Part shown: positions 9,943-31,613 of the stretch, piece after piece
Numbering within the stretch: the stretch's first letter is position 1
Layout: each line of letters opens with the position of its first letter
NCBI GenBank assembly: GCA_002968845.1
Contig: PVBG01000010.1
Span: 124,001 to 188,000 of the forward strand
DNA length: 64,000 nt
Reading direction: 5' to 3'
Source: Neorhizobium tomejilense
Lineage (GTDB): Bacteria > Pseudomonadota > Alphaproteobacteria > Rhizobiales > Rhizobiaceae
Position numbers and translations under genes: made by a program
Notes under the pieces: model-generated
Database searches by the model: none
The model's input: only the letters and a program-made list of their open reading frames with translations
What the model was told of the DNA's origin: nothing

Positions 9943-9948
9943 ATTATG

Positions 9949-10362: not shown

Positions 10363-10366
10363 CTGA

Positions 10367-13684: not shown

Positions 13685-13908
13685 TTCTTTCTTTCGCTCC
13701 AGTTCGTCGCCCGGGGATCGGTCTTCAGCGACTTCCGCTTTCCGTGCGCCACAGCCATCCGCCGAACCTCTTCGCGGCTGACGAAGGGTTGCGACGAAAA
13801 CTTTCCTTGCTGCCCCTCGAGGGCCAACTGCATTTCCACGAGCGTTGCAGACCAGAACACGGCGGGCGGCCAACCCAGGCCACCGGGCGCGTTGGCCAGT
13901 CTGAACAT
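13681..13908 (-). CDS. Tail assembly chaperone, T-like part (Phage_TAC_6 type), probably made by -1 frameshift
   Basis: The 75-codon stretch from ATG 13908 has APGGLGWPPAVFWSATLVEM, the hallmark of small tail assembly chaperones found before the tape measure gene (PF09550-like; gene transfer agents carry one). No Shine-Dalgarno sequence precedes the ATG. The same frame is open back to a stop at 13975-13977, overlapping the end of the upstream chaperone gene by about 45 bases, and lies in the -1 frame of that gene. A G-GT fusion by -1 frameshift, as in lambda, therefore fits better than independent initiation. Confidence 0.7.
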   Translation of the reverse strand: MFRLANAPGGLGWPPAVFWSATLVEMQLALEGQQGKFSSQPFVSREEVRRMAVAHGKRKSLKTDPRATNWSERKK

Positions 13909-13928
13909 CGTGCGAACGTAGTCGGAGA

Positions 13929-14330
13929 TCAGGAGGGGCGCCCTTGCTCCCCCAGGATGGCGGCCTCGGCCATCTCATGGGAGGAACGTTCGTCACGATG
14001 ACGGTGGCCGCCCTCGATATGCGCGAGAAAGGCTTTCTCAATCCCCTCCTGCCAGCTGTCACGGTCCGCCATCGAGATATTGCTGTCGTCGAGGATCCTC
14101 GCCGAGAAGGCAGAGGCCTTGTCGTCATCGTCGGCAACGATCAGCGTGCGAACGGCGCAGGCGACCGCGAAGGGCTCGAAACCGATCAGCCTTCGGTACA
14201 GTTCGTCCACCGTCAACACCTTCGTTGCCTGAGAGAGCTTCGTCAGGCCGGAGAAGGTGACCGCGACCCGGAAGGACTCGCGGCCGATAGTGATATCCGC
14301 TTCGCCGCGGATCGGGTTTGCAGTCGTCAT
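13929..14330 (-). CDS. Tail assembly chaperone, G-like (GTA gp10 type)
   Basis: The 133-residue protein starts with NPIRGEADITIGRESFRVAVTFSGL, the pattern of GTA-gp10-like proteins that bind the tape measure during tail assembly. Its C-terminal residues (IEGGHRHRDERSSHEMAEA) are charged and probably flexible. It lies between the tail tube gene and the T-like reading frame. Near its end a GGGGG run (codons CTG GGG GAG) could let the ribosome slip by -1 into the T-like frame. Confidence 0.75.
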   Translation of the reverse strand: MTTANPIRGEADITIGRESFRVAVTFSGLTKLSQATKVLTVDELYRRLIGFEPFAVACAVRTLIVADDDDKASAFSARILDDSNISMADRDSWQEGIEKAFLAHIEGGHRHRDERSSHEMAEAAILGEQGRPS

Positions 14331-14332
14331 CG

Positions 14333-14743
14333 TCAGACGGCCGCCACGAAGGTCGTCGCACCCGTCAAGGCAAGACGGATATCAGCCTGCATTTCGTTCG
14401 TCTTGTCGCCCGAAAACGTCATGGACAGCAGGCCATCGGCTTCGATCGTGCCCACGCCGGGAATGGTAACCTGGTAAGCTTCCACAACCTGGTTGATCGC
14501 GTTTGCCGCCACTGCCTTCATCGTGGCATTGCTGACGAAGGCGCCCTGGCCGGTCACACGGATGGACTGTGTGCCATACATGAGCGCCAGGACCAGCTTG
14601 GAGCCGGGAGCTGCGCAATCCGGCTTGGTGATATCGATTTCCTCATTGTTGATTTCGATGCTGCGCTGCTCTGTTACGCAAAGAAGCTCAAAATCCCCGG
14701 TCCCGTCGTCGCGGGCGATGGTGAGTGTGCGGCCAAGTGGCAT
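14333..14743 (-). CDS. Major tail tube protein
   Basis: The 136-residue protein has features of the TP901-1/lambda V tail tube fold: an N-terminal strand with GRTLTIARDDG, central RSIEINNEEIDITKPDC, and a C-terminal beta region IEADGLLSMTFSGDKTNEM. Tail tube subunits of this group usually run 130-180 residues. It stacks as hexamers around the tape measure protein. Neighbours fit: tail terminator upstream, chaperones downstream. Confidence 0.85.
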   Translation of the reverse strand: MPLGRTLTIARDDGTGDFELLCVTEQRSIEINNEEIDITKPDCAAPGSKLVLALMYGTQSIRVTGQGAFVSNATMKAVAANAINQVVEAYQVTIPGVGTIEADGLLSMTFSGDKTNEMQADIRLALTGATTFVAAV

Positions 14744-14781
14744 GACTGAAGTCTCCTATTGAGATGAGAGGGATGGAAAGG

Positions 14782-15246
14782 TCAGAGCGCCGCGACGGAA
14801 GGATCGCTTGCGAGGGTCTTGTAACGGACCTGGTAGGTGAGATTTCCGGCACCGAGCGGAAGACCGGTGCGCGGATCGACGAACAGGCGGGTAGTCTGCA
14901 GTTCGAGATCGACCGCGAGACCACCGATCGTGACGTCTTGTTCCATCCGCGCCTCGATCAGCGCGGAAATCCGATCGAACTCCTCTTCCGCATCATCGTC
15001 CCGCAGATGGACGATGACCGAGAGCGCCATAGAACGGTCGTAACCATCTTCGCCGTTCGGCCCGGAGCTTGGCCGGCGGCCGCTGTTTTCGCCGGCCTCG
15101 CCCCACGACAGGGTAATGGCCGGCAGCAATTCCTGTGGCACGGCCGCGAACCGGCCGCGCGCTACTTTTCTCGGACCTGAAAATTCCGGGATGGTGGCAA
15201 GGCCGGCCGCGACCCCTGCGACGATCAGGCTACGGCGATGCGCCAT
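14782..15246 (-). CDS. Tail terminator protein (gpU-like)
   Basis: The 154-residue protein contains AVPQELLPAITLSWGEAGE, the LPAI phrase typical of gpU-like tail terminators, and later FDRISALIEARMEQDVTIGGLAVD followed by YQVRYKTL, the usual C-terminal strand. It caps the finished tail tube and gives the head-binding surface. Its ATG overlaps the previous stop (TGATG), and it lies directly before the tube gene, as in lambda (U then V). Confidence 0.75.
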   Translation of the reverse strand: MAHRRSLIVAGVAAGLATIPEFSGPRKVARGRFAAVPQELLPAITLSWGEAGENSGRRPSSGPNGEDGYDRSMALSVIVHLRDDDAEEEFDRISALIEARMEQDVTIGGLAVDLELQTTRLFVDPRTGLPLGAGNLTYQVRYKTLASDPSVAAL

Positions 15247-15539
15247 CAGCCACGGCGCCCTAGATCGCGCAACGCCCGGTCAGCGGTAACGTTGGAATAG
15301 CCTGCCGCAACGACGTCGGTGACCGTCTTGCCGTCCCTCAACAGCCGCCCGATATCGGAACGGATCGCGGATCGGAGGCGAACCGGCAACGTCTCCCAGG
15401 TGCCGGACAGCTTCCGCAGCGCTTCACGGGCATCCTTTTTCGCCTTGCTCTCACCCTCGGAAAAGAGCGCCTTGGCGATCCCCTCCGGATCGAGCGCGGC
15501 GGCGACCTTTGCCGGCTCTTCTGTCTTCGGTTCGTTCAT
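15246..15539 (-). CDS. Small head-tail region protein of unknown function
   Basis: The 97-residue protein is mostly charged helix (EGESKAKKDAREALRKL), with a later RSDIGRLLRDGKTVTDVV helix. It occupies the place where lambda encodes gpZ but has no resemblance to Z; a Z-like gene lies upstream of the terminase instead (24354-25100). The start at 15539, MNEPKTEE, follows the FII-like stop by one base; a longer in-frame extension would lie wholly inside that gene. Possibly a head-tail joining or assembly factor. Confidence 0.6.
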   Translation of the reverse strand: MNEPKTEEPAKVAAALDPEGIAKALFSEGESKAKKDAREALRKLSGTWETLPVRLRSAIRSDIGRLLRDGKTVTDVVAAGYSNVTADRALRDLGRRG

Positions 15540-15540
15540 G

Positions 15541-15900
15541 TCAGATATCTCCCGAAAGATAGATGCGCAGCATCGAGCGCGCATCGTCCGAGTGGTTCTT
15601 GATCTGGTAGGAAGCGCTGACGCCTGTCCGGTTTCCCAGCGCATCCAGTTCATGGATCGTCACGCTGTCGCGCTGGCTTTGCAGGCCCGCAACCTTGGAA
15701 TACGCAACGGAAAGCAGATGGGTCGTACCCTCGACCGCCTGCCCCTGTTCTTCCGCCTCGTCCAATTCCCGCCACTGGCGGAAGATGACGCGGACGGAGG
15801 GGCGCGCGACGCCGCCGATGGTGAAGACGGCGTCGGCATTGCCGAAGGCACGATCGAAGCTCACGCCCATCCGTTCGAAGATGGGTGAGCGGGGCTTCAT
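15541..15900 (-). CDS. Head-tail joining protein (gpFII-like)
   Basis: The 119-residue protein begins SPIFERMGVSFDRAFGNADAVFTI and has the size (lambda FII is 117) and position of the FII attachment protein, which sits on the head vertex and receives the tail. The ATG overlaps the preceding stop (TGATG). The assignment combines size, position and a weak match to the FII pattern. Confidence 0.7.
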   Translation of the reverse strand: MKPRSPIFERMGVSFDRAFGNADAVFTIGGVARPSVRVIFRQWRELDEAEEQGQAVEGTTHLLSVAYSKVAGLQSQRDSVTIHELDALGNRTGVSASYQIKNHSDDARSMLRIYLSGDI

Positions 15901-16304
15901 CAGGTCGGCTTCTTCAGCTTGATGTTTTCAGCCTCGGCCGCTTCCAGGCGTTTACCGAGGGCAAGATTGTCCTCGCCGAGCTTGGTGTGGTCGAGCACCA
16001 GCTTGTCGTAGAGGCTGGTCTTTTCGGAGAGCCTCGTCTCCAGCTCACGCTTCTCCGCAAGCAGCGTCTCGATCTGGGAATCCCGCTGCGAGATCTCGGC
16101 ATCCGCAAGCGCAGCGCCGGCCGCGCCCTCGATCTGGGGACCGCCGGTATAGTCGCCGAAATTGTGACGGATGTTCTCCGCCTCCTCGGCGCTGATACCG
16201 TCCTTGCCGCCGATCGGCACGGGTGTACCCGGAGCGTAGGACTTCTTTCCTGCCTTGACCGTCGCATTAAACCGCTCGGTCCTGCTATTTGTCTTGGTAT
16301 TCAT
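15900..16304 (-). CDS. Coiled-coil head protein (gpFI position)
   Basis: The 134-residue protein has a basic N-terminus and a long C-terminal coiled coil (IETLLAEKRELETRLSEK onward to the end). It lies between the major capsid gene and the FII-like gene, the FI position in lambda, where the product helps terminase dock to the prohead. No sequence similarity to FI is visible to me. The ATG at 16304 has GGAGG five bases upstream, which rejects the in-frame start at 16316. Confidence 0.6.
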   Translation of the reverse strand: MNTKTNSRTERFNATVKAGKKSYAPGTPVPIGGKDGISAEEAENIRHNFGDYTGGPQIEGAAGAALADAEISQRDSQIETLLAEKRELETRLSEKTSLYDKLVLDHTKLGEDNLALGKRLEAAEAENIKLKKPT

Positions 16305-16367
16305 GGGTGCCTCCATGGGCTTCGTGGCCGCCGGAACCCCGGTCGGCGCACGAGTTCGGTTCAGGGG

Positions 16368-17399
16368 TTAGCGGACGAGCGCGAACAGGCTGGCGTTCGG
16401 CTCGGGCATGATCGGCAGCGGTGCCGACTGCGTCTGGACGATGGTGCGGGACGGGTTGCGCTCATGCCACATGTCCGGGAACCGCTCGATCGCCTGGAGC
16501 ACCTGGTTGTCGAGGATGGCGCCGTAGGCAAAATGCCCCATGAACCCGAAGGGATCGAAGACCCCGACACCGTTGGTCGGCCAGAAGTTATTCTTGACGC
16601 CGGCAACGGTGTAGGGCTGCGAATACTGGACGAACGTCACTTCGCCGATCGAGCCGAGCACCGCATAGTATTTGTTCTCGGCGCCGGTCGAAACCGGGCC
16701 CAGCTGCATCACGCCGCCATCCTGGCGGCGGTTGTCCAGCGCCTTCAGAAACCGCTCACTCTTTTTCAGGAAGCCGGCAGCAGCGCCACCCAAGAGCACC
16801 TCGCGACCGGTAAACCCATCCGTGTCCACCAGAAGCTGAATCCATGCCTCGATGTCGTCAAAGGGATCTACGCCCGTTTCACCCCAGCGGTCGGTACCCG
16901 TCAGAACGATGCTCAGTCCGGGATCGCGCTGGTAGTTCACGGTCTGGGTCGGGTAGTCCTCGCCCTGGACGATCACCTGTCCGGTCCGAAGTGCCTGCGA
17001 GCACATGAATTCCTCGCGGCGGGTGATCCGCAAGTCCTGATCGTCGATCATCGTCGCGAGATTGTAGGCATAACGCTGCGCCGGCGTCACGTTGCCGCCG
17101 ATGCGCTCGCCGGGCATGCGGATCATGTTGCCGCGGGGGCGCAGCGTGTTCTGCGGCTTCACATAGGCAGGCGTGAAGCTGGTTGCCTTGAAGCCGCGGT
17201 TCGCCGAATCCTTGCCCGGAACATCCGGATGCACGAAAGGTGCAAGCTCGCGGTCGGGCAGGATCTTGTCGAAGACGATTTCTTCCGCATCGGAAAGCAC
17301 CGTCGTCGAGAAATAACGGTCGCGGAGGAAAGCCTCCGGCCGGTCGCGCGGAGGCAGAACCGTAATCAGCTCCGCGGTATTGAGAAGGATGTCAGCCAT
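16368..17399 (-). CDS. Major capsid protein (lambda gpE family)
   Basis: The 343-residue protein is almost exactly the length of lambda gpE (341). Signature parts include the N-terminal LITVLPPRDRPEAFLRDRYF, the MPGERIGGNVTPAQRYAYN region and NFWPTNGVGVFDPFGFMGHF near the C-terminus. It forms the icosahedral shell and pairs with the gpD decoration protein encoded just upstream. No N-terminal delta domain is visible, so scaffolding is probably supplied by the separate acidic protein (17786-18331). Confidence 0.92.
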   Translation of the reverse strand: MADILLNTAELITVLPPRDRPEAFLRDRYFSTTVLSDAEEIVFDKILPDRELAPFVHPDVPGKDSANRGFKATSFTPAYVKPQNTLRPRGNMIRMPGERIGGNVTPAQRYAYNLATMIDDQDLRITRREEFMCSQALRTGQVIVQGEDYPTQTVNYQRDPGLSIVLTGTDRWGETGVDPFDDIEAWIQLLVDTDGFTGREVLLGGAAAGFLKKSERFLKALDNRRQDGGVMQLGPVSTGAENKYYAVLGSIGEVTFVQYSQPYTVAGVKNNFWPTNGVGVFDPFGFMGHFAYGAILDNQVLQAIERFPDMWHERNPSRTIVQTQSAPLPIMPEPNASLFALVR

Positions 17400-17426
17400 T
17401 GAAGGTTTCCTTTGCGGGTTAGGCTG

Positions 17427-17783
17427 TTACTTCAGCACGCGGACGTAGAGAGGCGCGCTCTTCTTGCGGAAGGCGGCTTCCACGGTCGCCGGGGTATGAC
17501 CCGCGCCGAGAATGAGCTTGGTGGAATCGAAGGCGGCACTGGCATAAGCTGCCGTCACAACGTCGCCGGCGCTTGCATCGCAGTCGATTGCGAGGACCAG
17601 GTCGGGCGTCTGCGAACCATCGGCCGAAGCGGAGGCCGACAGGGTGTATTTGTCCGAGGCGGTAATGTTGCCGATGACGGCGCCCCGCTTCAGGTTCTGC
17701 CCGCTCACAAGTGTGATGTTGCGGGTGGCGACCGGAACGTCGGAGACGAGCAGGTCATTCGGCGAGAAAGTGGCTTCCGCCAT
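17427..17783 (-). CDS. Head decoration protein (gpD family)
   Basis: The 118-residue protein matches gpD in length (lambda 110) and pattern: SDVPVATRNITLVSGQNLKRGAVIG, where the RGAVIG strand is typical, and AIDCDASAGDVVTAAY. Trimers stabilise the expanded capsid at three-fold positions. It lies between the acidic scaffold-like gene and the capsid gene, as in lambda (C/Nu3, D, E). Confidence 0.9.
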   Translation of the reverse strand: MAEATFSPNDLLVSDVPVATRNITLVSGQNLKRGAVIGNITASDKYTLSASASADGSQTPDLVLAIDCDASAGDVVTAAYASAAFDSTKLILGAGHTPATVEAAFRKKSAPLYVRVLK

Positions 17784-17785
17784 GA

Positions 17786-18331
17786 TCAGGCATCCTTCTG
17801 GTTACGGCCATGCATGGCCTTGATGACATTGCCGACGCCGGCGACGACCGCCTGGCGCTCGGAGCTTTTGCCGGCCCCGCCGCCCGATCCGAGCTGCGGG
17901 GTCCTGCCCTGCATCTTGTCGGCCAGCCGGGAGCCACCCGCGGAGGAGGCAAGCAGGGCGCCAGCCTCTTCGGCGGAATAGAACTTCGTGCCGAAGGCCA
18001 GCTCGGCGGCGAGGCCGGGATTGGCATCGGCGCGGGGATGCGTCAGGATCGACTTGATCCGGCTCTGCTCGGCGCGGCGGATCTTGGTGGAGGCGGAAGC
18101 CTTGGGTTCCTCTCCCTCTTCCTCCTCACCTTCCTTGGGCTTGTCTCCCTCGGGATCTTCTTCCGGCGGATCGCCCTCGGCGGAGGTATCATCCTCCTCG
18201 GTCGTCGCCTCCTCCTCGGCCGGATCGCCTTCCAGATCTTCCGGACGGTCCTCTTCCATCCTGCCGTTGGTCTTTCCCCGCACGGCTGCGAGCACGCTCT
18301 GCGCGAGCGTGTTGCGCGTCAGATTCGACAT
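17786..18331 (-). CDS. Acidic scaffold-like head assembly protein
   Basis: The 181-residue protein has a very acidic middle (residues about 25-75, long runs of Glu/Asp). Its C-terminal region (RIKSILTHPRADANPG, ELAFGTKFYSAEEAGALLA) resembles the tail end of phage S49 protease-scaffold fusions. In lambda the scaffold Nu3 is the C-terminal part of protease C. Here that part seems to be a separate gene after the S49 protease, with 24 bases between them. Scaffolding is inferred from these facts. Confidence 0.65.
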   Translation of the reverse strand: MSNLTRNTLAQSVLAAVRGKTNGRMEEDRPEDLEGDPAEEEATTEEDDTSAEGDPPEEDPEGDKPKEGEEEEGEEPKASASTKIRRAEQSRIKSILTHPRADANPGLAAELAFGTKFYSAEEAGALLASSAGGSRLADKMQGRTPQLGSGGGAGKSSERQAVVAGVGNVIKAMHGRNQKDA

Positions 18332-18355
18332 TGCTGTCTCCTGTAATGTTGGGTT

Positions 18356-19261
18356 CTAGCCGGCGGACCGGCCCAGTTCCGCTTCGAAGGCCGCAAGGAC
18401 CTGCGAAGGCCGTGCCACGACGTCGGCGAGGCCAGCCTCGACCGCCTTCTGTCCACGGTACACACCGGCCTCGGTAGCGAGGGCGGATTTCAGATCGAGA
18501 CGGCCGGCGCGAAACCGCGCCACCGTCGTCGCAAATTCGACGCGAAGCTCTTCCAGCTCCGCAAGTTCGTGCTCGACCACCTCTTTGGGGATCGGCTCAT
18601 AAGGATTGAAGTCGGCCTTTCGCGCGCCGGCCTTCAGGATCGTGACGTTCAAACCTTCCTTGGCGAGCCAGGCGCTCATATCGACATGCATGGAGATGAC
18701 ACCGATAGAACCGCAGATGCCGGTCGACGGAATGACGATCTGCCGCGCCGCCGATGCGAGCAGGTAGCCGGCAGAACATGCGTGATCGGTCAGGATTGCG
18801 ATCGTCGGTTTCTTCTGCGAAAGCTCAAAGAGCACCTCGCAGCAATCGAAAGCTCCGGTGACCTCGCCGCCGAAGCTGTCGATTTCCAAGATGGCTCCGC
18901 GGATGGACGCATCATCTATGCAGTCCAACGCCTGAACGGTGATCCCTTCATAGCTGGTCATGCCTGACGACTTACCGAGCCATTTGCCCTTGTTCACCAA
19001 GGAACCTTCGATCTCGATCAGGGCGATACCTTCGGCTACGCGACCCGGGCCGCGGTAGATCTTGTCGCCTTCCCAATCGACGGCATCGCGGAGTTTCTGC
19101 CCGATGATGCCAAGGGATTCACCGCCCTGAATGCTTGCGGCAACATCCGGCAGGCCAAGAACACGAGGTCCGAAGGCGCGCGCGATGATGTCGCCCTTGG
19201 CCGGATGCAAGAACAACGGGGTGTTGAACATCCGGCTGGCGATTTCGGGATAGTTCGTCAT
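18356..19261 (-). CDS. S49-family prohead protease
   Basis: The 301-residue protein has the S49/SppA-like fold: the strand ILEIDSFGGEVTGAFDC, the catalytic serine in HACSAGYLLAS (Ser163), and the probable catalytic lysine in GARKADFNPY (Lys215). It processes capsid and portal proteins during head maturation. It overlaps the portal stop as ATGA. The scaffold-like C-terminal extension normally fused to such proteases is missing here and appears as the next gene. Confidence 0.9.
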   Translation of the reverse strand: MTNYPEIASRMFNTPLFLHPAKGDIIARAFGPRVLGLPDVAASIQGGESLGIIGQKLRDAVDWEGDKIYRGPGRVAEGIALIEIEGSLVNKGKWLGKSSGMTSYEGITVQALDCIDDASIRGAILEIDSFGGEVTGAFDCCEVLFELSQKKPTIAILTDHACSAGYLLASAARQIVIPSTGICGSIGVISMHVDMSAWLAKEGLNVTILKAGARKADFNPYEPIPKEVVEHELAELEELRVEFATTVARFRAGRLDLKSALATEAGVYRGQKAVEAGLADVVARPSQVLAAFEAELGRSAG

Positions 19262-20979
19262 GCCGGCACCTTTCTGCTGATGGACGGAATACCGGCCGGA
19301 TGACGCCGAGACGCCGATCGTGCATCCTGTTCGACCGGCGCCAGACCATCGCTATCGCGATCCGCGACGGGCGCCGGCCGGGTTGCCGGGTCGATCATGG
19401 ACGGATGTTGCAATCCCCGCGCCTCGTACTCGCGGACCTCGACGGCGAGTTGCTCCATGTCGTCGCGCCAGTCGCCGCCCTGCTCGGCGGCCTCCTTCTG
19501 CAGCGTGGTCAAGCGGTTCTTCATCCGCTCGCCGGCAGCCTGGGCTTCCTTCAGCGGATCAATCCAGCCGCGGCCGGGACCGATCCATTCGGCATGGCAC
19601 CACGCGGCGGGATTTTCCGCGAAGGGAACCGCACCGGCCGGCAGGTCGATCCGCCCGCTGTCGAACTGCTCCTCCAGCCACGCCCGATAGATCGGCGACA
19701 TGAACTGCGACGCGAAGCCCCCCTTCTTCACCGCGAAGCCGCGCCAGATCTCCAGCAGTGCGGCACGGGCGGACGAATAGTTGACGTTGCTCCAGTCCAT
19801 GGTCAGCTGCTCGTAGGTCAGACCGACGGCGCTCGCGACCTTGCGCAGTGCTGCGTTGACGAAGGCTTCGAAGTTGGCGTTAGGGTGCTCTGGCTTTGTG
19901 AGGTTCGCCTTTTCGCCGGGCTGCAACATGTTGACGCGGACGCCGGGCAGATCGATCGGCGCCGCGCCGTAGTAGGCCTTCTGCGCCTGTGCCATCTCGC
20001 CGTAGAGCTGCTGAACACCGCCGGGCGTGACATCCGATCCCATGGCGTCCAGAAACTCTTCTGGATCGAAGGGCGTTTCGATGAAGGCCGCCATGACGGC
20101 GTTCAGCATCGCAGCCTGGCTCTCATAGTCCTCATAGTCGGTCGATTGCTTGATCGACCGAATAACCGGCGCCCAATCGGATACGCCCCGGGTCATGCCG
20201 GCCCGTTTCTGGTCGAAAGCATGCACCACGATGGGGCGGCCCCATTCTGTCGACCGCTCGACATACTCCCAGTTCCAGAGCCCCATATTGCCCGCGAAGA
20301 ACTCGCCGGGATGGGATTTGCGGAAATGATAGCCAAGCGGGGCGCCGTAACCATTGATGGCGACGCCGTCGCGGAGGAATTCCTCGTCCATCCGGCCCAT
20401 GGGGTTTGAGCAACGGGCCGGATCGATGACATGGACACCGGTCTTGAACAGCGGAGCATCGTCCTGCCAGGCGACGATCGCGAAGGCTTCACCCTCGGCG
20501 CCGAACCGATGGCGCGCAGCAAGACCGAGGATCCCGGCCATGGTCTTGCTGCGCTCCGCATCGCACCATTTGTCGACGTCGTTGGTATAGTCCCACCACA
20601 GGCTTTCGATCTGGCCAGAGACCTCTTCAGCCTGCTGAAAGGTCATGTTCAGCGACTTGTGGTTCGGCTTCGCGGCAAGGGTCCAACCAGAACCGATGAT
20701 GTTATCGACCAGACGCGACGTGCCGGCGGCGCCCCAGCCGTCATTTCGGGCAACGTCGTTCAGACGGTCGACGATATCGGTGCGCGACCATGACAGCGCG
20801 GCCTGTCCCGACCATGTGCCGGGGCGCCATTTGGCAAGGTTGGGGTGGTCATACGCAGCGCCTTGATAGGCAGTGGACGCCAGGGCGCGGTTTTTCGCGA
20901 CCTGAAGGCGCGCGGCCGAACGGACATGCGGCGCAAGCGGCCGTGCGTCCGGCCCAAGGATCTCGATTTGTCCGCTCAT
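19258..20979 (-). CDS. Portal protein (lambda gpB family)
   Basis: The 573-residue protein (lambda gpB is 533) carries the family phrases TSRLVDNIIGSGWTL, HRFGAEGEAFAIV and LTYEQLTMDWSNVNYSSARAAL. Twelve copies form the DNA channel at one vertex, bound to terminase during packaging and later to the head completion proteins. Its start overlaps the gpW gene stop (ATGA), and its stop overlaps the protease start. Confidence 0.93.
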   Translation of the reverse strand: MSGQIEILGPDARPLAPHVRSAARLQVAKNRALASTAYQGAAYDHPNLAKWRPGTWSGQAALSWSRTDIVDRLNDVARNDGWGAAGTSRLVDNIIGSGWTLAAKPNHKSLNMTFQQAEEVSGQIESLWWDYTNDVDKWCDAERSKTMAGILGLAARHRFGAEGEAFAIVAWQDDAPLFKTGVHVIDPARCSNPMGRMDEEFLRDGVAINGYGAPLGYHFRKSHPGEFFAGNMGLWNWEYVERSTEWGRPIVVHAFDQKRAGMTRGVSDWAPVIRSIKQSTDYEDYESQAAMLNAVMAAFIETPFDPEEFLDAMGSDVTPGGVQQLYGEMAQAQKAYYGAAPIDLPGVRVNMLQPGEKANLTKPEHPNANFEAFVNAALRKVASAVGLTYEQLTMDWSNVNYSSARAALLEIWRGFAVKKGGFASQFMSPIYRAWLEEQFDSGRIDLPAGAVPFAENPAAWCHAEWIGPGRGWIDPLKEAQAAGERMKNRLTTLQKEAAEQGGDWRDDMEQLAVEVREYEARGLQHPSMIDPATRPAPVADRDSDGLAPVEQDARSASRRHPAGIPSISRKVPA

Positions 20980-21212
20980 CCGAAGATCACTCCACGGCTG
21001 CGGGCGCGGCTGGAAGTTCTCAATCCCAATTGAGCTTCCAGCGTCCGGACATACTGGCGCAACGAACCCGCGTTGGCGGCTGAATAAGTGATGTTCTCGC
21101 CGTTATAGGCGAGGCTCACTTCCGCTCCGCCGATCTCGAGGCGGTGCAAAGCTGCCCGCGCTTCGGAGAGCTGCGCCTCGAGGAGCGCCCGCTGTTCTAC
21201 AGTCAAAGCCAT
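20976..21212 (-). CDS. Head completion protein (gpW family)
   Basis: The 78-residue product begins TVEQRALLEAQLSEARAALHRLEIG, the two-helix gpW pattern, then a short beta hairpin (AEVSLAYNGENITYSAAN) and a terminal helix. Lambda gpW is 68 residues. It plugs the portal after packaging and lets FII join. Position between large terminase and portal is the same as in lambda. Confidence 0.88.
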   Translation of the reverse strand: MALTVEQRALLEAQLSEARAALHRLEIGGAEVSLAYNGENITYSAANAGSLRQYVRTLEAQLGLRTSSRARSRGVIFG

Positions 21213-21220
21213 CGAAGTTC

Positions 21221-23260
21221 CTATCGGTTGCGTTGAGCAGCGCGCGCGGCACGGGCGAGCGCCGCGGCGACAAGGCTGGATTGTTCGGTTTCCGAATCCT
21301 GCTGGGACGGGCTCGCATCGCCGGGAAGCATCCCGGTCAGCAGGTCCTCGATATCGCCCTGTACCGGAGCCTCGATCTTGGCGAGCACTTCCTCACGGAC
21401 ATCCCAATCGTCATCGGTCCAGTACGGAATGCCAAGCCGAATGGCGCCAGCACGGGCTTGGTTGAGCATGTCGAGCACCTCGTTGCGCTGGCCCGCCGGC
21501 AGCTTCCAGACCCAACGCGGATGCCCCGTCTTCGTCTTCTCAGGGACCCGGCTTTCCGACGTCGCCTGCTGATAGAAGTCATCGCCGAGGCCGATGGCGA
21601 ACCGGATGTAGCCAGACTGCTCGGCGTCCTCTTTCTTGAAGTCCCGATAGAGGCCCATTTTCATCACCGACGCATTGAAGTTGAAGAACCGGCTGGTCCA
21701 CTTCTGCTTCTTCGGCTTGCCCTTACGGTCGTATTCGCGCACCTGGCTCAGAAGCGGTGCGGCGTCTCGATTGTCGCCGCGTACCATGATGACGCGCGAC
21801 TTCGGGTGCTTACGCGCCCACATCCAAACGTCCTCGGTATAGGCATTGCCGTCGATCGCCGTCAGATCGACCTTGCGGCGCCGCCCTGCTTCGTCCAGCC
21901 ATGACCGCTCGATCAGGCGATCGAGCGCCGCACGCACCTCCGGTTCGGAAATATGTCCAGAATGATCCTTGTGGCCCGGCAGGTGACTTCCCGCGGAACT
22001 GTCAATCCGTCCGAAATCGATCACCGCATTGAAACGGTTTCGGCCCCATCCCCGCAACAGCCACTCGACACGGTCGCCCTGCACGTCGACGCCGAGCGTG
22101 AGAGCGAGGATACCGGCGGGGACCACACCGCGGCGGAAGCCTGCTTCCTCGGCGCGATCCCGGAGATCCTCCCAGGCGATAGCCTTGTTTTCGGCTTCAA
22201 ATTCGAGGCCGAGCCAGTCGTTCCAAAAGACCTGCTCGGTTCCAGCTGCTTTCTCCCGGTCGTCTGGGGCGCCCGATTGCACCTTCAGCCAGGCGCGGGC
22301 GATTGCCTCCCACGACTCCAGTGGGGAATAGGCAACCCAGATATGAAACGAGCGATGGTAACGCGCTCGCTCCGGATATTTGGCAACCCAGGTGGCACCG
22401 TTCTCCGGTTTGACCATCCATGACCGGTGATGTTCGTGGATCTCGCAACCGCAATGGACGCAAACGAAATGCGCTTTCTCCGGATGTTCGGGATCAATGT
22501 GATCCCGCATGTTTTCCCAGCGGAGCTCCTGCAGCTCGCGGCAGTGCGGGCACGGCACATGATAGCGCTCCTGCGTCCCGTCGAGGTAGTTTGCCGAGAT
22601 CCGGCAGCCCGGCGCTATAAGCGGCGTCGAGATCTTGAATACCTTGCGGTCAAAGAACGCCTTGGATCGGCTATCCGCCTGCACCTCCGGATCGCCGGCA
22701 TCGTTCATCGACCATTTCGCCAGGTCGTCCTGCACCTGGCGCCGCGGCGAGATCATCGAGAGGCCGGCCGGCGAGTTCGCCCCGGCCGCCTGCAGGGCGC
22801 CGCGGCCGTCCATCCGTTCCTTGTAGAGGATCGAATTTCCGCCTTCGCGGCTGGACTCCGAGAACAGAAGCCGGACGGCCGTCGTCTCGCGCAACAGCGG
22901 CATCAGCTTCGTCTTCGACCACCGGCTCGCGTTCTCCTCGGTCGGATGGACGTAGAGGAAATCGCATGGCGCCAGAACCAAAGTGCCGAACAGGAAGATG
23001 TTCGCAAGCACCGTGCCGCCGACCTGCGCCGACTTCTTCAGCGTTACCACGGTGCAGGGATCGTCCGGCGCCAGGGCACGCAGGATCTCGGAGAAGAACG
23101 GAAACAGGTCCTCGCGGTACCGCCCCGGCTGCGCCGAGATACGCTCTGAAAATACGATCTCCTCTTTGGCGAACTTCAGGAAGTCGACGGCCGGCGGCGG
23201 TTCGCAGGCTTTCGCCAGCTCCTGGAACGCCAGCTTCGCCGGATTGAACAGCATCGTCAT
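21221..23260 (-). CDS. Terminase large subunit (lambda gpA family)
   Basis: The 679-residue protein (lambda gpA is 641) has the adenine-binding and Walker-A-like motif KSAQVGGT (residues 76-83), the RRQVQDDLAKW segment, a cysteine set in HCRELQELRW and CVHCGCEIHEHH, and the nuclease part starting LTLGVDVQGDRVEW. GpA enzymes cut cos sites and drive DNA into the prohead, so cohesive-end packaging is expected. The start overlaps the small-subunit stop as ATGA. Confidence 0.94.
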   Translation of the reverse strand: MTMLFNPAKLAFQELAKACEPPPAVDFLKFAKEEIVFSERISAQPGRYREDLFPFFSEILRALAPDDPCTVVTLKKSAQVGGTVLANIFLFGTLVLAPCDFLYVHPTEENASRWSKTKLMPLLRETTAVRLLFSESSREGGNSILYKERMDGRGALQAAGANSPAGLSMISPRRQVQDDLAKWSMNDAGDPEVQADSRSKAFFDRKVFKISTPLIAPGCRISANYLDGTQERYHVPCPHCRELQELRWENMRDHIDPEHPEKAHFVCVHCGCEIHEHHRSWMVKPENGATWVAKYPERARYHRSFHIWVAYSPLESWEAIARAWLKVQSGAPDDREKAAGTEQVFWNDWLGLEFEAENKAIAWEDLRDRAEEAGFRRGVVPAGILALTLGVDVQGDRVEWLLRGWGRNRFNAVIDFGRIDSSAGSHLPGHKDHSGHISEPEVRAALDRLIERSWLDEAGRRRKVDLTAIDGNAYTEDVWMWARKHPKSRVIMVRGDNRDAAPLLSQVREYDRKGKPKKQKWTSRFFNFNASVMKMGLYRDFKKEDAEQSGYIRFAIGLGDDFYQQATSESRVPEKTKTGHPRWVWKLPAGQRNEVLDMLNQARAGAIRLGIPYWTDDDWDVREEVLAKIEAPVQGDIEDLLTGMLPGDASPSQQDSETEQSSLVAAALARAARAAQRNR

Positions 23261-23907
23261 TCGCTGGCATCCTCGACGTGAACTGGTTCGGCGTCAGCCT
23301 GCTGGCGGAACCGTTCGGCCTGTACCGCGCGGACCGCCCGAAAGGATTTCGCCAGCGCATGGTGAGCGTCGCGCTGCGGCACTCCGAATTGTTCGGCCAT
23401 GGCTTCCGACATCTGTTGCAGGCCTTGCTCCATGACACTGAATGCAGCGGCAATGGCTTTCGCCATCGCCCGGCGGCCGTCCTCGGTCAGCATGTACCGC
23501 CCAACGTCGAGCAGCTCTTCGCGCTCCGCCTGGTCGGTCTTGATCCGCTCACGTCGCAACCGCAGCTGCGCAAGCTCATCGACGGGCTGATCCTGCGTGC
23601 CAGGCGGCGGAGGTGATGGCGGCGCGTCACCCCTCGGCGTGAACAGGTTGGCGTCGGGAGCCTGCTGGGCCTTCGGCTCCGGGGCCCGCATAGCGGCGCC
23701 GTTGGCACCGAACCTCTGTCCCGGCTCCAGAGTTTTCCGAAGCTGGTCCTTTGCAAGAACCGGATTGATCTTTGCCCGCCGCCCCTCGCCCTCGATGGCA
23801 GCGCCGAAGATCTTTCCCTCTGCGATGTATTGAGACACCCGCCCCGGGCTGACGCCGAGCATCACGGCGAAATCGCCCTTGCTGACCGATCCGGTTTGGA
23901 GGTTCAT
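23257..23907 (-). CDS. Terminase small subunit (Nu1-like DNA-binding protein)
   Basis: The 216-residue protein starts with a winged helix-turn-helix of the Nu1 type (FAVMLGVSPGRVSQYIAEGKI). A proline-rich linker (about residues 75-105) follows, then a helical C-terminus (LRLRRERIKTDQAEREELL) that would bind the large subunit. It recognises the cos region. A cluster of TTTAGG-type repeats lies immediately upstream of its start (23908-23957) and is the natural candidate for its binding site. Confidence 0.85.
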   Translation of the reverse strand: MNLQTGSVSKGDFAVMLGVSPGRVSQYIAEGKIFGAAIEGEGRRAKINPVLAKDQLRKTLEPGQRFGANGAAMRAPEPKAQQAPDANLFTPRGDAPPSPPPPGTQDQPVDELAQLRLRRERIKTDQAEREELLDVGRYMLTEDGRRAMAKAIAAAFSVMEQGLQQMSEAMAEQFGVPQRDAHHALAKSFRAVRAVQAERFRQQADAEPVHVEDASE

Positions 23908-23957
23908 TTTAGGCTCTACTTTACCCGGGCTTTAGTTTAGGGTTTCAACTTTAGGCT
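23908..23957. repeat. TTTAGG-type repeats before terminase: candidate cosB (R sites)
   Basis: On the plus strand TTTAGGCT occurs at 23908-23915 and again at 23950-23957, exactly 42 bp apart. Between them are TTTACC (23920), TTTAGT (23931) and TTTAGGG (23936). The spacing is near 11-14 bp, about one helical turn. In lambda, R sites bound by Nu1 lie just before the Nu1 gene; the gene here is also Nu1-like. Function is inferred from position and repetition. Confidence 0.5.
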
Positions 23958-24081
23958 TCTAAAAATCGCTCAGACTGCCGCGACATAGCCGTGCCAAATA
24001 TCCGATGGGCGCTTTTGGCCAGGGAGGACCCGCGATTTGAGCCTAGGGCCTTTGGCCACGACGATGATGATGAGAGGGGTA

Positions 24082-24348
24082 ATGGACAAGCTTTTGGAAG
24101 TGATCGGCTCGCTCGGCGTGTGCGCTGTGCTGCTAACATTGGTCCTACTGGCATCAGCCAGCCAGGGCGGCGCGGATGCCGCGATCGTAGTTCTTGGATC
24201 ATTACCCTGGGCCGTCCCAGCTCTCATAGGCTGCGTGATCATCGCAGCCTTCGGCGTCATGCTAGGTGAACTGAAAGCAATTCGTTTGGCTTCAGAGATA
24301 CAGTCGCTACACTTGCGCGACTTGGTCAAACAACGGGACCGATCCTAA
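24082..24348 (+). CDS. Two-helix membrane protein, reversed insert in the late operon
   Basis: The 88-residue protein has two membrane segments (residues about 8-27 and 32-55), followed by a charged helix (LKAIRLASEIQSLHLRDLVKQRDRS). The ATG at 24082 has GAGAGGGG just upstream and is preferred to earlier in-frame methionines. It is on the plus strand between two minus-strand late genes, like a lambdoid moron. It could be a holin-type or superinfection-exclusion protein; the sequence does not decide. Confidence 0.65.
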   Translation: MDKLLEVIGSLGVCAVLLTLVLLASASQGGADAAIVVLGSLPWAVPALIGCVIIAAFGVMLGELKAIRLASEIQSLHLRDLVKQRDRS

Positions 24349-24353
24349 CTTCT

Positions 24354-25100
24354 CTACGGCGCCTGCCTTAGCAGTCGATCGAAGTGGCGCTCGAAGTTCA
24401 TCGGTAACACCGCATCTACATGCCGCTCGACAACCTCACGAAGCCTCAGGCGAATTCGGTAACCTTCGGATCGAAGGAACAAGACGACCGGCTTGATGCC
24501 CCCCGTCCCTGGGTTCCTCTCCCATATACCTGGGAACAGCTGCCCGCCGCGCTTCGGCACGAAGAACCGCGCGCTGCGGTAGTTCTTGTTCCGCTTCACT
24601 GACGCATCCGAGCGAACGCGGGTCGCGCCAGCACCGCGATAGTCAATCTGCAGATCTGCCATGAAGCGGTTGATATACCCTTGCGTCATGTTGCCATAAC
24701 GATCCCGAGGCGTATCGCGAGCAGGTACGGCAACCTCACCCTTCTGCATCGCGCCCCGCTGGATAAGCTGGCGCTCGAAAGCCTTGTGGGTACGATACCC
24801 GCCCTCGATCTGGGGTCCGAGGAATGCTGTCGCAGGCAATCCGCCCTTGGTCCTATCCCCGGTTACCGCGACTGCGGCCCGGAGGTTTTCCTTGGTTGCC
24901 GGATCATACACCACACCGCGTTTCGCATAAGGAGTGGGGCGATCGAATACCCGATCCATCTCGTTCTGCACTTCGATACGGCCTGACTTGACTGTATCGT
25001 TCAGCGCGTTGCGGATCACGCTCGGCATCCTGTTGCGCTCGACATCCCGCAGATATCGATCGAACTGGCTGAAATCTATTTTGACGTGAGCTTCGATCAT
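24354..25100 (-). CDS. Minor tail protein Z-like (tail completion)
   Basis: The 248-residue protein contains SVIRNALNDTVKSGRIEVQNEM followed by FDRPTPYAKRGVVY, the pattern of the phage minor tail Z family (PF06763), which acts in tail completion. In lambda, Z lies between FII and U; here it lies upstream of the terminase. The ATG at 25100 lies after a terminator hairpin, in a position suiting the first gene of the late transcript; an upstream GTG at 25154 would place the hairpin within the gene and is rejected. The ATG lacks a well-spaced Shine-Dalgarno sequence. Confidence 0.7.
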   Translation of the reverse strand: MIEAHVKIDFSQFDRYLRDVERNRMPSVIRNALNDTVKSGRIEVQNEMDRVFDRPTPYAKRGVVYDPATKENLRAAVAVTGDRTKGGLPATAFLGPQIEGGYRTHKAFERQLIQRGAMQKGEVAVPARDTPRDRYGNMTQGYINRFMADLQIDYRGAGATRVRSDASVKRNKNYRSARFFVPKRGGQLFPGIWERNPGTGGIKPVVLFLRSEGYRIRLRLREVVERHVDAVLPMNFERHFDRLLRQAP

Positions 25101-25115: not shown

Positions 25116-25142
25116 AAGAAAAAAGGCGACCTCTCGGTCGCC
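25116..25142 (-). terminator. Intrinsic terminator between NusG-like gene and late genes
   Basis: GGCGACC (25125-25131) and GGTCGCC (25136-25142) form a perfect 7-bp stem with a TCTC loop (plus-strand letters). The run of A at 25116-25124 becomes a T tract after the stem on the minus strand, so leftward transcripts should stop here, about 20 bases before the first late gene. Late gene expression would then require read-through. Confidence 0.85.
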
Positions 25143-25315
25143 TAAAGATCGCACATAGCGGTAGCAGTCGCCTTGAATCGGTGCCTCCGGTTGGGGGCTG
25201 TCAAAGCTGGGGTAGGAGGCCCTGTTCCGTGACGCCTTCCGGCGTCGTCTGGCCCGATCAGGTCGGGCGATGATGACGGTGAGACACTCCTACGTGTCCA
25301 ATGCCGATACGACTC
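25143..25315 (-). ncRNA. Structured leader RNA before the late operon, candidate antitermination element
   Basis: No protein is encoded in this 173-base stretch. Read leftward, the RNA would form in order: GACAC/GTGTC (25283-25298), GCCCGA/TCGGGC (25252-25268), GACGCC-GGAA-GGCGTC with a GNRA-type loop (25231-25246), and GCCTCC/GGAGGC (25183-25220). Then AAGGCGAC (from 25167-25174) can pair with GTCGCCTT (from 25123-25130), which is also the terminator's 3' arm, giving two exclusive folds. A TTGACA (minus strand, 25199-25204) could be the -35 box of a late promoter, but no good -10 is seen. Function is inferred. Confidence 0.5.
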
Positions 25316-25960
25316 TCACACCTTCTTCAGGAACGCAAGGGGGATGCTGGCAAGGTCAAAGGGCCGTCCCTGCACATCGATCCGTACGCTGGCCTTGGCT
25401 TGTCGGCACCATTTCACCGAGGTGACGACGCACATGAACCCGGCGAATGGACCCATCACGATATCGGCCCTGTCACCGTCTTTCATAGTTTTGTCGACAG
25501 CCACCCGCGGCGCCTCGGTCTGTTCGCAAAACCGTCTGAAAACATCGACATCCGCGTCCCGAATCACATGATAAGATCCGGTCTTGCTTCCGACGATATC
25601 GACGACGTCATCATGGCTTTTCAGCCCCAGAAAGGCCGCTGCAGACGGGACGACACGCACCAGCATGTAACCCGGAAAGCAAGGGATATTGCGCTCGACC
25701 TTGCGCCCGCGCCGCACCTCGACCAGCAATTCACGCGGCATAAACGCCTCGATACGCGAATTCCGCAATGCAATTTCCACAGAGGTTTCACGATCTTTTT
25801 TGATCTGCAGGCAATACCAACGCGCCTCCCAGAGCTTTTCATAGACCCGGTCGACGCATGCCGCGTACCGATTCGCTGCCTCTTCACCCATCTCCCGCAG
25901 ATCCCTCGCGATCTTTTCCATGCCTCGCGTCACGTCCACTTCATTGCCTTCGTGCATCAT
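25316..25960 (-). CDS. Phage NusG paralogue, putative late antiterminator
   Basis: The 214-residue protein has an N-terminal helical extension (about 50 residues) and then a NusG N-terminal domain: EARWYCLQIKKDRE, PRELLVEVRRGRKVERNIPCFPGYMLVRV. A C-terminal KOW-like part follows (MKDGDRADIVMGPFAGFMC). NusG proteins bind the RNA polymerase clamp and change pausing and termination; specialised paralogues such as RfaH act on chosen operons. It is the last gene before the structured leader, the terminator and the late operon, the place of lambda Q. The ATG at 25960 follows the replication gene stop by seven bases, with TAGGA upstream. Confidence 0.8.
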   Translation of the reverse strand: MMHEGNEVDVTRGMEKIARDLREMGEEAANRYAACVDRVYEKLWEARWYCLQIKKDRETSVEIALRNSRIEAFMPRELLVEVRRGRKVERNIPCFPGYMLVRVVPSAAAFLGLKSHDDVVDIVGSKTGSYHVIRDADVDVFRRFCEQTEAPRVAVDKTMKDGDRADIVMGPFAGFMCVVTSVKWCRQAKASVRIDVQGRPFDLASIPLAFLKKV

Positions 25961-25967
25961 CGTGATC

Positions 25968-27125
25968 CTACGCTGCATCAACATCGCCCTTGCCCTCGCT
26001 CAACCGTGCCTGGAATTCCGCCATCGCCTCCTCCGGCTCGCCCGCCGGAAAGAAGAACCACTCGTGATCCCCATCCGGGAACCACGGCCATCCCATGCGC
26101 TCGTGCAGCGCCTGCCAACGCAGGTATCGCTCGTCACCGCGGCGCATCCGCTCGAAGCTTTCTGACAGCGACACCAGCCTTGGGGGGACGGATACCGCCT
26201 TGCCGTCCGTCACCATGGCCGAGGCCTTAGGCCACCCATATTTCGCTTGGCGCTCCCGCTCCAACTTGCGAGCCTCTTCGGCATCACGCATCTGATTTCT
26301 TTGGAAGTGGGTTAGCGCCGGCCAACCGTTCGTCGACATGGGCTTGGAGATCTCGGCGAGGAAAAGCGCCGTCCACGGCCGGCTGAACGCCTTGTGCATC
26401 GTCGGCGGGGAGATCTCATCTTTGGGGTCTTCAAGACGACGCCAAGCACGATCGGCGAGGTAGACGGCCGCGAATGTGAACTTGGCGGTCTTGGTCGCCC
26501 TGACTGCCGCGATGAACGCTGGCGTGCGTTCGATGCATGCGGCCCGATCTTCAGGTGAAAGGGCATGGAACGCGCGACGTGCCGCTTCTTCGCTGCTCGA
26601 CAGGTAGGTCGGCCACGTCGGGTACCAGGCCTTGAACTTGCGCTCTATCTTTTTCGGATCTTCATCCGAGCCAGCGCACGCGCCCTCTCTCTCGGTTAAT
26701 ATTACAGGTTCTATTACAGGTTTATCTTTAGAGGACTCCAGTGTCCGGTTCAAACTGTCAGAAATGTCCGGTTCAAACTGCTCGATTTGTCCGGTTGAAG
26801 CCGAATTTGAACCGGGCAAATTGTCCGGTTGATCTTCAGGTGCTGCTGCACGGAACCCATCTTCGAAGGCAAGGGCGTACCGGTTGTTTTTGCGATACTT
26901 CCCGTCGCGCTGCTCAGTCCAATTTATGAGGAACTTTCCTCGCAAGCTCGCCAGCAGCCGGCGCACCGTCCGCTCGTCAATCTCGCAGGCTTCGGCAAGG
27001 TAGTCTTGGGAAGGGAAGCATCCCTCGACAGGATTATGGCAGTCCGCGAGATGCCACAGCACCCGCGCTTCCGCACAGGTGATGCCGCGCACCGTGACGG
27101 CCCACATGGTCGCTTTGTGGCTCAT
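25968..27125 (-). CDS. Phage replication initiator (helix-turn-helix, lambda O-like)
   Basis: The 385-residue protein begins with a winged helix domain (ARVLWHLADCHN, CFPSQDYLAEACEIDERTVRRLLASL), typical of HTH_36-type phage replication proteins. The centre (residues about 95-140) is low-complexity and is encoded by repeated DNA. The C-terminal domain (YLADRAWRRLEDP, WALTHFQRNQM-like helices) probably recruits helicase. As in lambda O, the origin seems to lie within the gene. It overlaps the upstream gene as ATGA and precedes the NusG paralogue. Confidence 0.78.
   Translation of the reverse strand: MSHKATMWAVTVRGITCAEARVLWHLADCHNPVEGCFPSQDYLAEACEIDERTVRRLLASLRGKFLINWTEQRDGKYRKNNRYALAFEDGFRAAAPEDQPDNLPGSNSASTGQIEQFEPDISDSLNRTLESSKDKPVIEPVILTEREGACAGSDEDPKKIERKFKAWYPTWPTYLSSSEEAARRAFHALSPEDRAACIERTPAFIAAVRATKTAKFTFAAVYLADRAWRRLEDPKDEISPPTMHKAFSRPWTALFLAEISKPMSTNGWPALTHFQRNQMRDAEEARKLERERQAKYGWPKASAMVTDGKAVSVPPRLVSLSESFERMRRGDERYLRWQALHERMGWPWFPDGDHEWFFFPAGEPEEAMAEFQARLSEGKGDVDAA
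26697..26834. repeat. Iterons and AT-rich element inside the initiator gene: candidate phage origin
   Basis: TGTCCGGTT starts at 26742, 26765 and 26788 (exactly 23 bp apart) and at 26822; an inverted related site (TTTGAACCGGGC) is at 26806-26817. The first two copies match over 16 bases (TGTCCGGTTCAAACTG). Because 23 is not a multiple of three, the repeats are read in different frames, so selection is on DNA rather than protein. Next to them is an AT-rich stretch with ATTACAGGTT at 26701 and again at 26714, a likely unwinding element. Confidence 0.75.
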
Positions 27126-31168: not shown

Positions 31169-31169
31169 C

Positions 31170-31613
31170 TCATCCTCCCATCATTGAAAAGAGCCGAGCG
31201 AGATCCTGCTGCGCGGCGACGATGCGGCTGCGCACAGCGGCCCGCTCGGCAGCGTCGATTCTGCCGTCCTCGATTGCGCGCACGACCTCGCGCACGACGT
31301 CGTCGAGCACGCCGTCGAGCTTCAGGACTGCAGTCGGGGTGAGCGACGTTGCCGGGGCGATAGGTTCATTGCGAACCAAGCGGCTCATGGCATCAAGAAA
31401 GAACGGATGCGAAGTCCGCCGATCCAACGCCACGGCAAGATCGAGGCGGATGTAGCTCGAAACCCATTCCGAACCGGTTGAGGCGTATTTCGTGAGGGTC
31501 GACGACGCGACTCCGATCGCATCGGCGGCGCGGGTGACCCCACCGATGGCGTCATAACTCGCAGCCGTCGCGGCTTTGAGAGCTTCCTGTTCTTTGGCGT
31601 CGAGTGGGCGCAC
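31170..31613 (-). CDS. CII-like transcription regulator
   Basis: The 147-residue protein has an N-terminal helix-turn-helix of the kind seen in phage CII-like regulators (GGVTRAADAIGVASSTLTKYAS) and a C-terminal helical region (VVREVVRAIEDGRIDAAERAAV) suited to oligomer formation. It is the first gene after the Cro-like gene and a terminator, the same place as lambda cII. A GTG start at 31613 is supported by AGGGG eight bases upstream. It may promote lysogeny; the target promoter is not identified. Confidence 0.68.
   Translation of the reverse strand: MRPLDAKEQEALKAATAASYDAIGGVTRAADAIGVASSTLTKYASTGSEWVSSYIRLDLAVALDRRTSHPFFLDAMSRLVRNEPIAPATSLTPTAVLKLDGVLDDVVREVVRAIEDGRIDAAERAAVRSRIVAAQQDLARLFSMMGG

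Follow-up and report, generated by a model that had tools for sequence, protein, structure and literature searches.

The 64,000-nucleotide stretch of Neorhizobium tomejilense DNA analysed here (contig PVBG01000010.1, positions 124,001 to 188,000; hereafter the window) holds a prophage of a temperate tailed phage. The last gene of its early block (25316..25984, minus strand) encodes a 222-residue protein that, judged from its sequence, is a specialised paralogue of NusG. The gene is followed by a conserved structured RNA of 162 nt with covarying helices and without a match in Rfam, which extends from the nusG stop codon to an intrinsic terminator (25154..25315, minus strand). The late operon lies beyond the terminator. 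The phage NusG is probably an RNA-recruited late antiterminator, which would stand in a position like that of lambda Q and act by a mechanism like that of LoaP and its leader hairpin. On balance, the pair seems to constitute a new class of phage late switch, in which a NusG paralogue and a dedicated multi-helix RNA behind its own gene gate the whole late operon, and in which the protein and a hitherto undescribed RNA family occur in one-to-one pairing in temperate phages whose hosts are of the Rhizobiaceae type. Computation established to which family the protein belongs and what fold it is predicted to have, how the RNA folds and covaries, that RNA and protein are tightly linked, and that a terminator stands in the gene order before the late genes. 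An earlier interpretation of the same DNA (the sequence-only reading) had singled out the gene; it gave neither the strand nor the structured RNA between gene and terminator. The interest of the locus lies in the RNA-protein pair rather than in the protein alone.

Structure of the leader RNA

The common plan of the RNA comprises, from 5' to 3', a GGACGA-like motif, helix P1 with variable arms between its strands, the sequence CCC, helix P2 with an internal loop, and the element CAGUGC-NNNN-GCUAUG or a near form of it. All parts are on the minus strand of the window. The first motif, located 5' of P1, reads GGACAC (25294..25299; the commonest family form is GGACGA), and its GG can pair with the CC after the 3' strand of P1. 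In the predicted fold, P1 is formed by GUAGGAG (25287..25293) and CUCCUAC (25212..25218). The arms within P1 (25227..25279), drawn from the fold and covariation, contain a CCGU/ACGG stem (25276-25279 with 25227-25230) and two hairpins (25251-25268 and 25231-25246); arms of the window type make a three-way junction. P2, the core of the motif (25171..25206), was delineated from the alignment and covariation and has an outer and an inner stem separated by the internal loop. It is followed by a putative mini-hairpin, P3 (25154..25169), with the sequence GACUGC-UACC-GCUAUG in place of the commonest family form CAGUGC-NNNN-GCUAUG.

By reading, the conserved stretch was found 3' of nusG in all 25 of the first relatives, and in the distinct ones its length up to the core's end is 159-163 nt. 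In more distant phages the 3' core is retained and the 5' half differs. The leader also occurs in a short form of 114-116 nt, for example in Rivra, and in a third form, for example in 'Nostoc phage' Nsp-JY10. The latter record (locus L032, PP395642.1, 5878-6671) contains a rhizobial-type nusG and the RNA core; either its host label is doubtful, or the element may have made a far crossing.

The region that includes the leader and the terminator (25101-25320) has a folding energy of -87 kcal/mol (z -3.4), better than 200 of 200 shuffled sequences. Covariation in the core was evaluated in two alignments. A2, a MAFFT alignment of the 70-nt core with 41 rows, was not fitted to the model; 94.0% of its cells are paired, compared with 91.0% in shuffled alignments, and its score is 0.168 compared with 0.106, both values exceeding those of all 500 shuffles. 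A4 contains 67 distinct rows and was fitted to the model structure, which biases its pair counts towards the model; 96.6% of the cells in its core are paired, compared with 89.8% after shuffling and at most 55% after sliding, and eight pairs have changes on both sides, which occurred in none of 500 shuffles. The trend of A2 agrees with that of A4 in cells paired, two-sided cells and score. Across the whole leader, nine of the 24 predicted pairs show two-sided changes among 26 long-form sequences, counted without a shuffle control.

Helix P1 is outside the model and was tested separately. Nineteen of 36 distinct strand combinations are fully complementary, whereas 5000 shuffles, which ignore relatedness, gave a mean of 3.5 and a maximum of 10; an offset of 0-2 nt of the 3' anchor was allowed in real and shuffled data alike. 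The test excluded five of the 70 leaders (L074, L122, L123, L128 and L132), for which no anchor could be set. With a stricter 3' anchor, the mean was 2.94 pairs of five against 2.51, with a shuffle maximum of 3.0. A free best-helix test is in agreement with the offset test, with 13.2 against 12.0 and a maximum of 12.5 among 200 swaps. The two modelled pairs of P3 are invariant, and the mini-hairpin itself is therefore unproven. Above the gathering threshold of Rfam, the window gave only tRNA and eight relatives gave no match; below the threshold, nothing convincing was found for the window leader (best E 0.25).

Linkage of the RNA to the NusG paralogue

The RNA and the protein were each used to find the other. 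The RNA motif is located within 300 nt past the nusG stop codon in 62 of 64 viral loci found by the protein, as judged by a loose motif with about 0.1 chance occurrences per kb. The two loci without the motif, L095 and L097, are weak matches in other gene settings. Their short NusG-like genes (3980-4498 and 1012-1545, respectively), which belong to other phage contigs and are not accompanied by the RNA, may be further phage NusG paralogues with another signal.

In the reverse direction, a model of the RNA matched 34 places in 31 of 297 genomes of the host family (E <= 0.001). A nusG paralogue is present upstream in all of the 30 loci tested from these places, and ends 43-132 nt before the core; some of the 30 loci, the window included, are identical or close to training sequences. 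A 26-base pattern identified 58 loci in the species-genome collection, two of which were untestable, and the paralogue is present in 55 of the 56 others. The sole exception, L192 from a Nitrospiraceae bin, has the pattern within apparent coding DNA of an ABC transporter. In viral contigs, a 23-base pattern matched at least 120 stretches, including 119 new loci, and the paralogue accompanies it in all 111 testable ones; the other eight start too near the motif for testing. The 120th match, L079, is a protein-found locus that also has the paralogue. The RNA-found and protein-found sets of loci partly overlap, and by reading at least 21 of 79 new viral-contig loci are listed on contigs already in the protein-found set. 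Some contigs matched in the species-genome collection also equal in length contigs matched by the RNA model in the family sample.

The credible genome matches are all from Rhizobiaceae-type bacteria. The Nitrospiraceae bin aside, the record titles from the species-genome collection name Rhizobium, Agrobacterium, Ensifer, Neorhizobium, Shinella, Brucella, Mesorhizobium and their kin. The genome from which the window was taken has one copy of the RNA. Scans with the RNA model, run with strict filters that weak matches may escape, found two of 297 genomes in a sample of the order, namely the window's genome and another member of its family, and three of 385 in a sample of the class, the window's genome and two weak matches (E 2e-5 and 1.6e-4) without nusG upstream. 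These two candidates for RNA outside the family look like chance, and E-values of 2e-5 to 1.6e-4 are therefore unsafe.

The tight linkage bears on the possibility that the RNA itself antiterminates, like HK022 put or Bacillus EAR, either directly or with host NusA, and that the phage NusG has an accessory role in place of host NusG, such as escape from Rho. The put RNA provides a precedent for antitermination by RNA alone in the available text of PMC9378689, and the leader RNA is a large structured molecule, in contrast to the small hairpin of LoaP. The RNA core also appears better conserved than the protein, which was found in five of the 297 family genomes (E <= 1e-25) compared with 31 for the RNA (E <= 0.001), although these counts rest on thresholds that are not comparable. 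However, a self-sufficient RNA is expected to spread alone, whereas RNA without a nusG paralogue was seen in testable loci only in the apparent coding DNA of L192 and in the two weak model matches from other families. We regard antitermination by the RNA itself, with the phage NusG as an accessory, as unlikely.

The phage NusG paralogue

The open reading frame (ORF) at 25316..25984 starts with ATG and overlaps the upstream replication-initiation gene by 17 nt. Homologues in a kept gene order show that it is real and rule out a chance or artefact ORF. The sequence-only reading ascribed to the protein a NusG N-terminal (NGN) domain and a KOW-like end and proposed structure prediction as a check of the NusG fold; the domains were confirmed, and the predicted fold is that of NusG. 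Residues 55-149 (25538..25822) match Pfam PF02357 with an E-value of 3.8e-14 and 53.4 bits, compared with a cut-off of 22.2. The AlphaFold2 model, calculated from a 66-row alignment (pLDDT 90.3, pTM 0.82), contains the NGN domain and an all-beta KOW domain (residues ~166-222, 25319..25489) with strands within residues 172-221. The profile of the protein family matches NusG structures at 1e-33 and also aligns with isolated NusG KOW chains from the PDB. The best solved structures in a Foldseek search with the model are those of NusG; RfaH first appears at rank 7. TM-scores over the whole chain are low (about 0.3-0.4 by query), which probably reflects a different placement of the domains; the best alignments cover about 100 columns with an rmsd of 2.2-2.8. 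The nearest viral structure model, A0A291AUS6, is 36% identical.

The NGN domain is preceded by an N-terminal extension (residues 1-53, 25826..25984), which the model shows as a beta hairpin (residues 8-17) and a helix (residues 18-41), and which host NusG does not have. Many relatives begin with MMQH or MQRR-like sequences. The extension is a candidate contact to RNA or polymerase.

Bit scores against NCBIfam models are below cut-off throughout: 71.5 for UpxY (cut-off 100), 60.1 for LoaP (NF033641, curated cut-off 125), 54.7 for NusG and 45.5 for RfaH (144.5). The C-terminal domain (CTD) is predicted to be beta rather than an alpha-helical autoinhibited CTD of the RfaH type. From its sequence, the protein is thus classified as a specialised paralogue within the NusG/Spt5 superfamily that is not LoaP, UpxY or RfaH. 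The source genome has two PF02357 matches, so the paralogue is separate from the housekeeping nusG. Identity to the host's own NusG is 29% over 163 alignment columns, which together with the extension rules out the pick-up of an unchanged host nusG.

PHROG 6386, 'transcription antiterminator', matches residues 53-222 (profile positions 12-179 of 179, E 6e-50). The profile was rejected as a tracer of the phage family, as it matches 272 of the 297 genomes sampled from the order as well as 12 of 14 control genomes, and therefore mostly detects ordinary NusG. Matches in the phage collection that resemble bacterial housekeeping nusG were also set aside, H8 for its flanking secE and rplK and others on name alone. 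The record of 'Microcystis phage MaAM05' (L033, MW495066.1, 3582-5916) contains secE-nusG-rplK-rplA and metabolic genes and resembles a bacterial chromosome deposited as a phage.

Gene order and the gate terminator

The early block on the minus strand starts with a CII-like regulator (31170..31613, from a scan against PHROGs) and continues through two methyltransferases and a replication initiation protein (25968..27125, PHROG 270) to nusG. An intrinsic terminator with an 8-bp stem, a 4-nt loop and a T run (25119..25143, minus strand; stem 25124-25143, T run to 25119) separates the leader RNA from the late operon. The operon is about 23 kb long (1896..25100, minus strand) and encodes a minor tail protein, TerS, TerL, head-tail adaptor, portal, protease, tape measure, distal tail, fibres and endolysin. 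Its first gene encodes the minor tail protein (24354..25100, minus strand, PHROG 1924). The ORF tool placed the start of this gene further upstream, at a GTG (25154), but the PHROG match covers this longer ORF only from residue 19 on, and therefore the ATG at 25100, past the terminator, is the likely start. The nusG paralogue is thus, as the sequence-only reading had it, the last early gene before a terminator and the late operon. Its observation that no Q, N or similar antiterminator is present also held: none of the 35 other window ORFs scanned matched a PHROG family named Q, N or antiterminator, in a scan that did not cover the ORFs at about 14.1-18.4 kb or several others that are small or of doubtful status.

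The order of replication gene, nusG and late or packaging genes recurs in Rhizobium phage PPF1, Sinorhizobium phages phi2LM21 and phi3LM21, Agrobacterium phage Rivra and Mesorhizobium phage vB_MseS-P1. A strict terminator lies within 110 nt past the RNA core in 43 of 70 leaders, compared with seven of 1291 random windows. A strict scan of the minus strand of positions 1-33000 of the window found four terminator-like sites, at 32872, at 25124 (the gate), at 15562 inside the late region and at 705 past the last late gene; the last is a strong hairpin (705..738, minus strand). A looser scan of 21000-33500 found 11 sites compared with 11.4 in shuffles, and therefore the case for the single gate terminator rests on its strength, place and conservation. 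No sigma-70 promoter was detected on the minus strand of 21000-32000 by a consensus scan, from which rhizobial promoters may differ. In Mesorhizobium phage vB_MseS-P1 (L317, 4709-4860), the annotated HNH gene starts within the RNA core with no terminator between, and in L120 (1414-1490, minus strand) a tRNA-Met gene is positioned directly 3' of the RNA core, at the place of the terminator of other phages.

The position of the element directly 3' of the nusG stop codon, with a terminator at its end in many phages, as in many small RNAs, would also suit a regulatory or stabilising 3' untranslated region or a small RNA that acts in trans and ends at the terminator, while the phage NusG acts elsewhere, for example against Rho genome-wide. 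Transcription past the element is, moreover, presumed. Nevertheless, the gate terminator precedes the late genes of the window, the scanned ORFs revealed no other late activator, and the RNA is kept where no terminator follows, which is unexpected for a terminator-ended small RNA, so that this explanation is improbable. Attenuation by pairing between leader and terminator was rejected, given that the terminator stem is self-contained in the fold of the window and the RNA is kept where the terminator is missing. The location of the PPF1 and Rivra loci near the deposited genome ends, close to tail or HNH genes, could suggest that the element is conserved as DNA, next to the packaging site (cos) or in a late-promoter region, rather than as RNA. 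This is highly improbable, since the PPF1 record ends beyond the next gene, outside the element, and the complementary changes in P2 and across the strands of P1, which are separated by 68 nt in the window, are consistent with a single strand that folds.

Proposed mechanism

The regular order of early genes, nusG, RNA, often a terminator, and late genes meets the needs of a late antitermination switch. Based on the precedent of LoaP, in which a NusG paralogue is combined with a leader hairpin, we read the RNA as a loading site on the nascent early transcript. Early transcription would pass through the replication gene, nusG and the structured RNA of about 160 nt, and would normally stop at the terminator at 25119-25143. 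Once enough phage NusG has been made, its NGN domain may bind the polymerase at the usual NusG site, and the nascent RNA, comprising the P1 junction, P2 and the CAGUGC-NNNN-GCUAUG element, may hold the protein there. The loaded polymerase would resist the gate terminator and later stops and would transcribe the late operon to about position 705. The retention of the RNA where the terminator is missing argues for a lasting change of the polymerase over a local attenuator. Binding of the RNA, loading of the polymerase, read-through of the terminator and the timing of these events are what we infer from the arrangement.

Several observations weigh against recruitment of the phage NusG by the leader RNA as the basis of late antitermination. 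Binding of the leader RNA by the protein is inferred from analysis that is computational throughout, and the KOW domain of the family is not notably basic, with a mean charge of +0.2 (+4 in the window). The A2 alignment has three two-sided pairs, a number reached in 191 of 500 shuffles and thus within their range. The strand of the RNA was derived from the orientation of the gene and terminator, and the counts of G-U and A-C in the stems, 15 versus 13, do not discriminate between the strands. No strict terminator is present within 110 nt in 27 of the 70 leaders, although, by reading, the stem is still present in many of these and is followed by a shorter T run; L123, L127, L130 and Mesorhizobium phage vB_MseS-P1 have no terminator before the next gene. 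The gate terminator is therefore not universal and not essential to the design. Finally, the late promoter was sought by the sigma-70 consensus scan alone, so such a promoter is possible.

Other features of the prophage

The integrase gene (39922-41031) adjoins a tRNA-Leu gene (41034-41118). No exact direct or inverted repeats of at least 14 nt, as expected of att sites, were found between 40801-41400 and 1-3500. The repressor gene is located at 32142-32780. Between its end and the next rightward ORF, a terminator-like hairpin readable on both strands is accompanied by two opposed sigma-70-like sites (32872-32937). At least three DNA methyltransferase genes are present in this single prophage (28616-30741 and 38011-38883).

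Comparison with known systems

The protein family and its antiterminator label were already known from PHROG 6386 and from the GenBank records of PPF1, phi2LM21 and phi3LM21, whose annotated antiterminators belong to the same family as the window protein; the annotations examined name neither a mechanism nor an RNA element. What appears to be new is the RNA, together with its structure and its coupling to the protein. These were not found in Rfam or in the literature searched, which did not extend to subscription papers, so a prior description is possible. Phrase searches of the same literature returned no papers on a phage-encoded NusG or a NusG-like antiterminator of phage late genes. According to the accessible part of PMC12429752, a transcription antiterminator closes the early region of all phiLM21-like prophages, together with an HNH gene. 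The listed family matches do not include phiLM21 itself, and the membership of its antiterminator in the window family is putative. The parts of PMC7593976 at hand mention rfaH-like genes on prophages, and those of PMC2864571 list Rhizobiales and phage motifs without mention of NusG; the terms sought are absent from PMC5537653 and PMC8631192. The distribution of the RNA, in 31 of 297 host-family genomes, and the existing annotation of the protein as an antiterminator indicate that this late switch, which the sequence-only reading called uncommon, is not rare in rhizobial phages.

The gene transfer agent of Caulobacter offers a parallel in GafZ, as its alphaproteobacterial phage-like cluster is also driven by antitermination. 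GafZ is described as having a sigma-like DNA-binding motif, with host NusA, NusG and NusE as likely partners (PMC11150451, seen in part); unlike the window protein, it is not a NusG paralogue. The HK022 put RNA resembles the leader RNA as a nascent RNA element of a temperate phage that affects pausing and termination; put acts unaided (PMC9378689, available text), whereas the RNA of the window is accompanied by a NusG paralogue.

Two protein-based systems share part of the design. RfaH is, like the window protein, a specialised NusG paralogue recruited to chosen operons. The CTD of RfaH is helical and refolds, whereas that of the window protein is predicted to be beta, and the RfaH models score below cut-off. 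Lambda Q is a late antiterminator and not a NusG homologue. It is likewise encoded by the last early gene, which is followed by a leader with a terminator and then by the late operon. As described in the accessible portions of the reports, RfaH uses the ops DNA element (PMC2871177) and Q loads at a paused complex by means of a DNA element (PMC7171158), in contrast to the RNA proposed as the signal in the window. The suggestion of the sequence-only reading that a dedicated NusG takes the place of lambda Q fits the anatomy of the prophage; what it lacked is that the protein does not stand alone and has a conserved structured RNA linked to it. In mechanism, LoaP with its RNA hairpin, or N with nut, is thus a closer parallel than Q.

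If the proposed mechanism is true, RNA-recruited NusG paralogues, described for LoaP and antibiotic gene clusters, also serve the lysis programme in a large group of phages of Alphaproteobacteria, and late-gene switch-on in phages without a visible Q-type activator becomes directly testable. The much-diverged protein-RNA pairs would form a natural set for studying how NusG factors choose their transcripts. The findings also point to a conserved RNA missing from Rfam, the core motif and model of which can serve as a marker for late-gene starts in rhizobial prophages.

The system would be a variant of RNA-directed processive antitermination. LoaP and the dfn and mln leader hairpin of Bacillus share with it a NusG paralogue, a leader in which an RNA structure precedes an intrinsic terminator, and a long downstream operon; the dfn UNCG hairpin was neither seen nor searched for in the window. 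In the available text of PMC12691694, LoaP serves antibiotic gene clusters, requires the small UNCG hairpin of the leader RNA alone and allows intrinsic terminators to be read through. The window differs from LoaP in the phage late operon that it would control, in the multi-helix RNA of about 160 nt directly behind the factor's own gene, and in the extra N-terminal helix of the protein.

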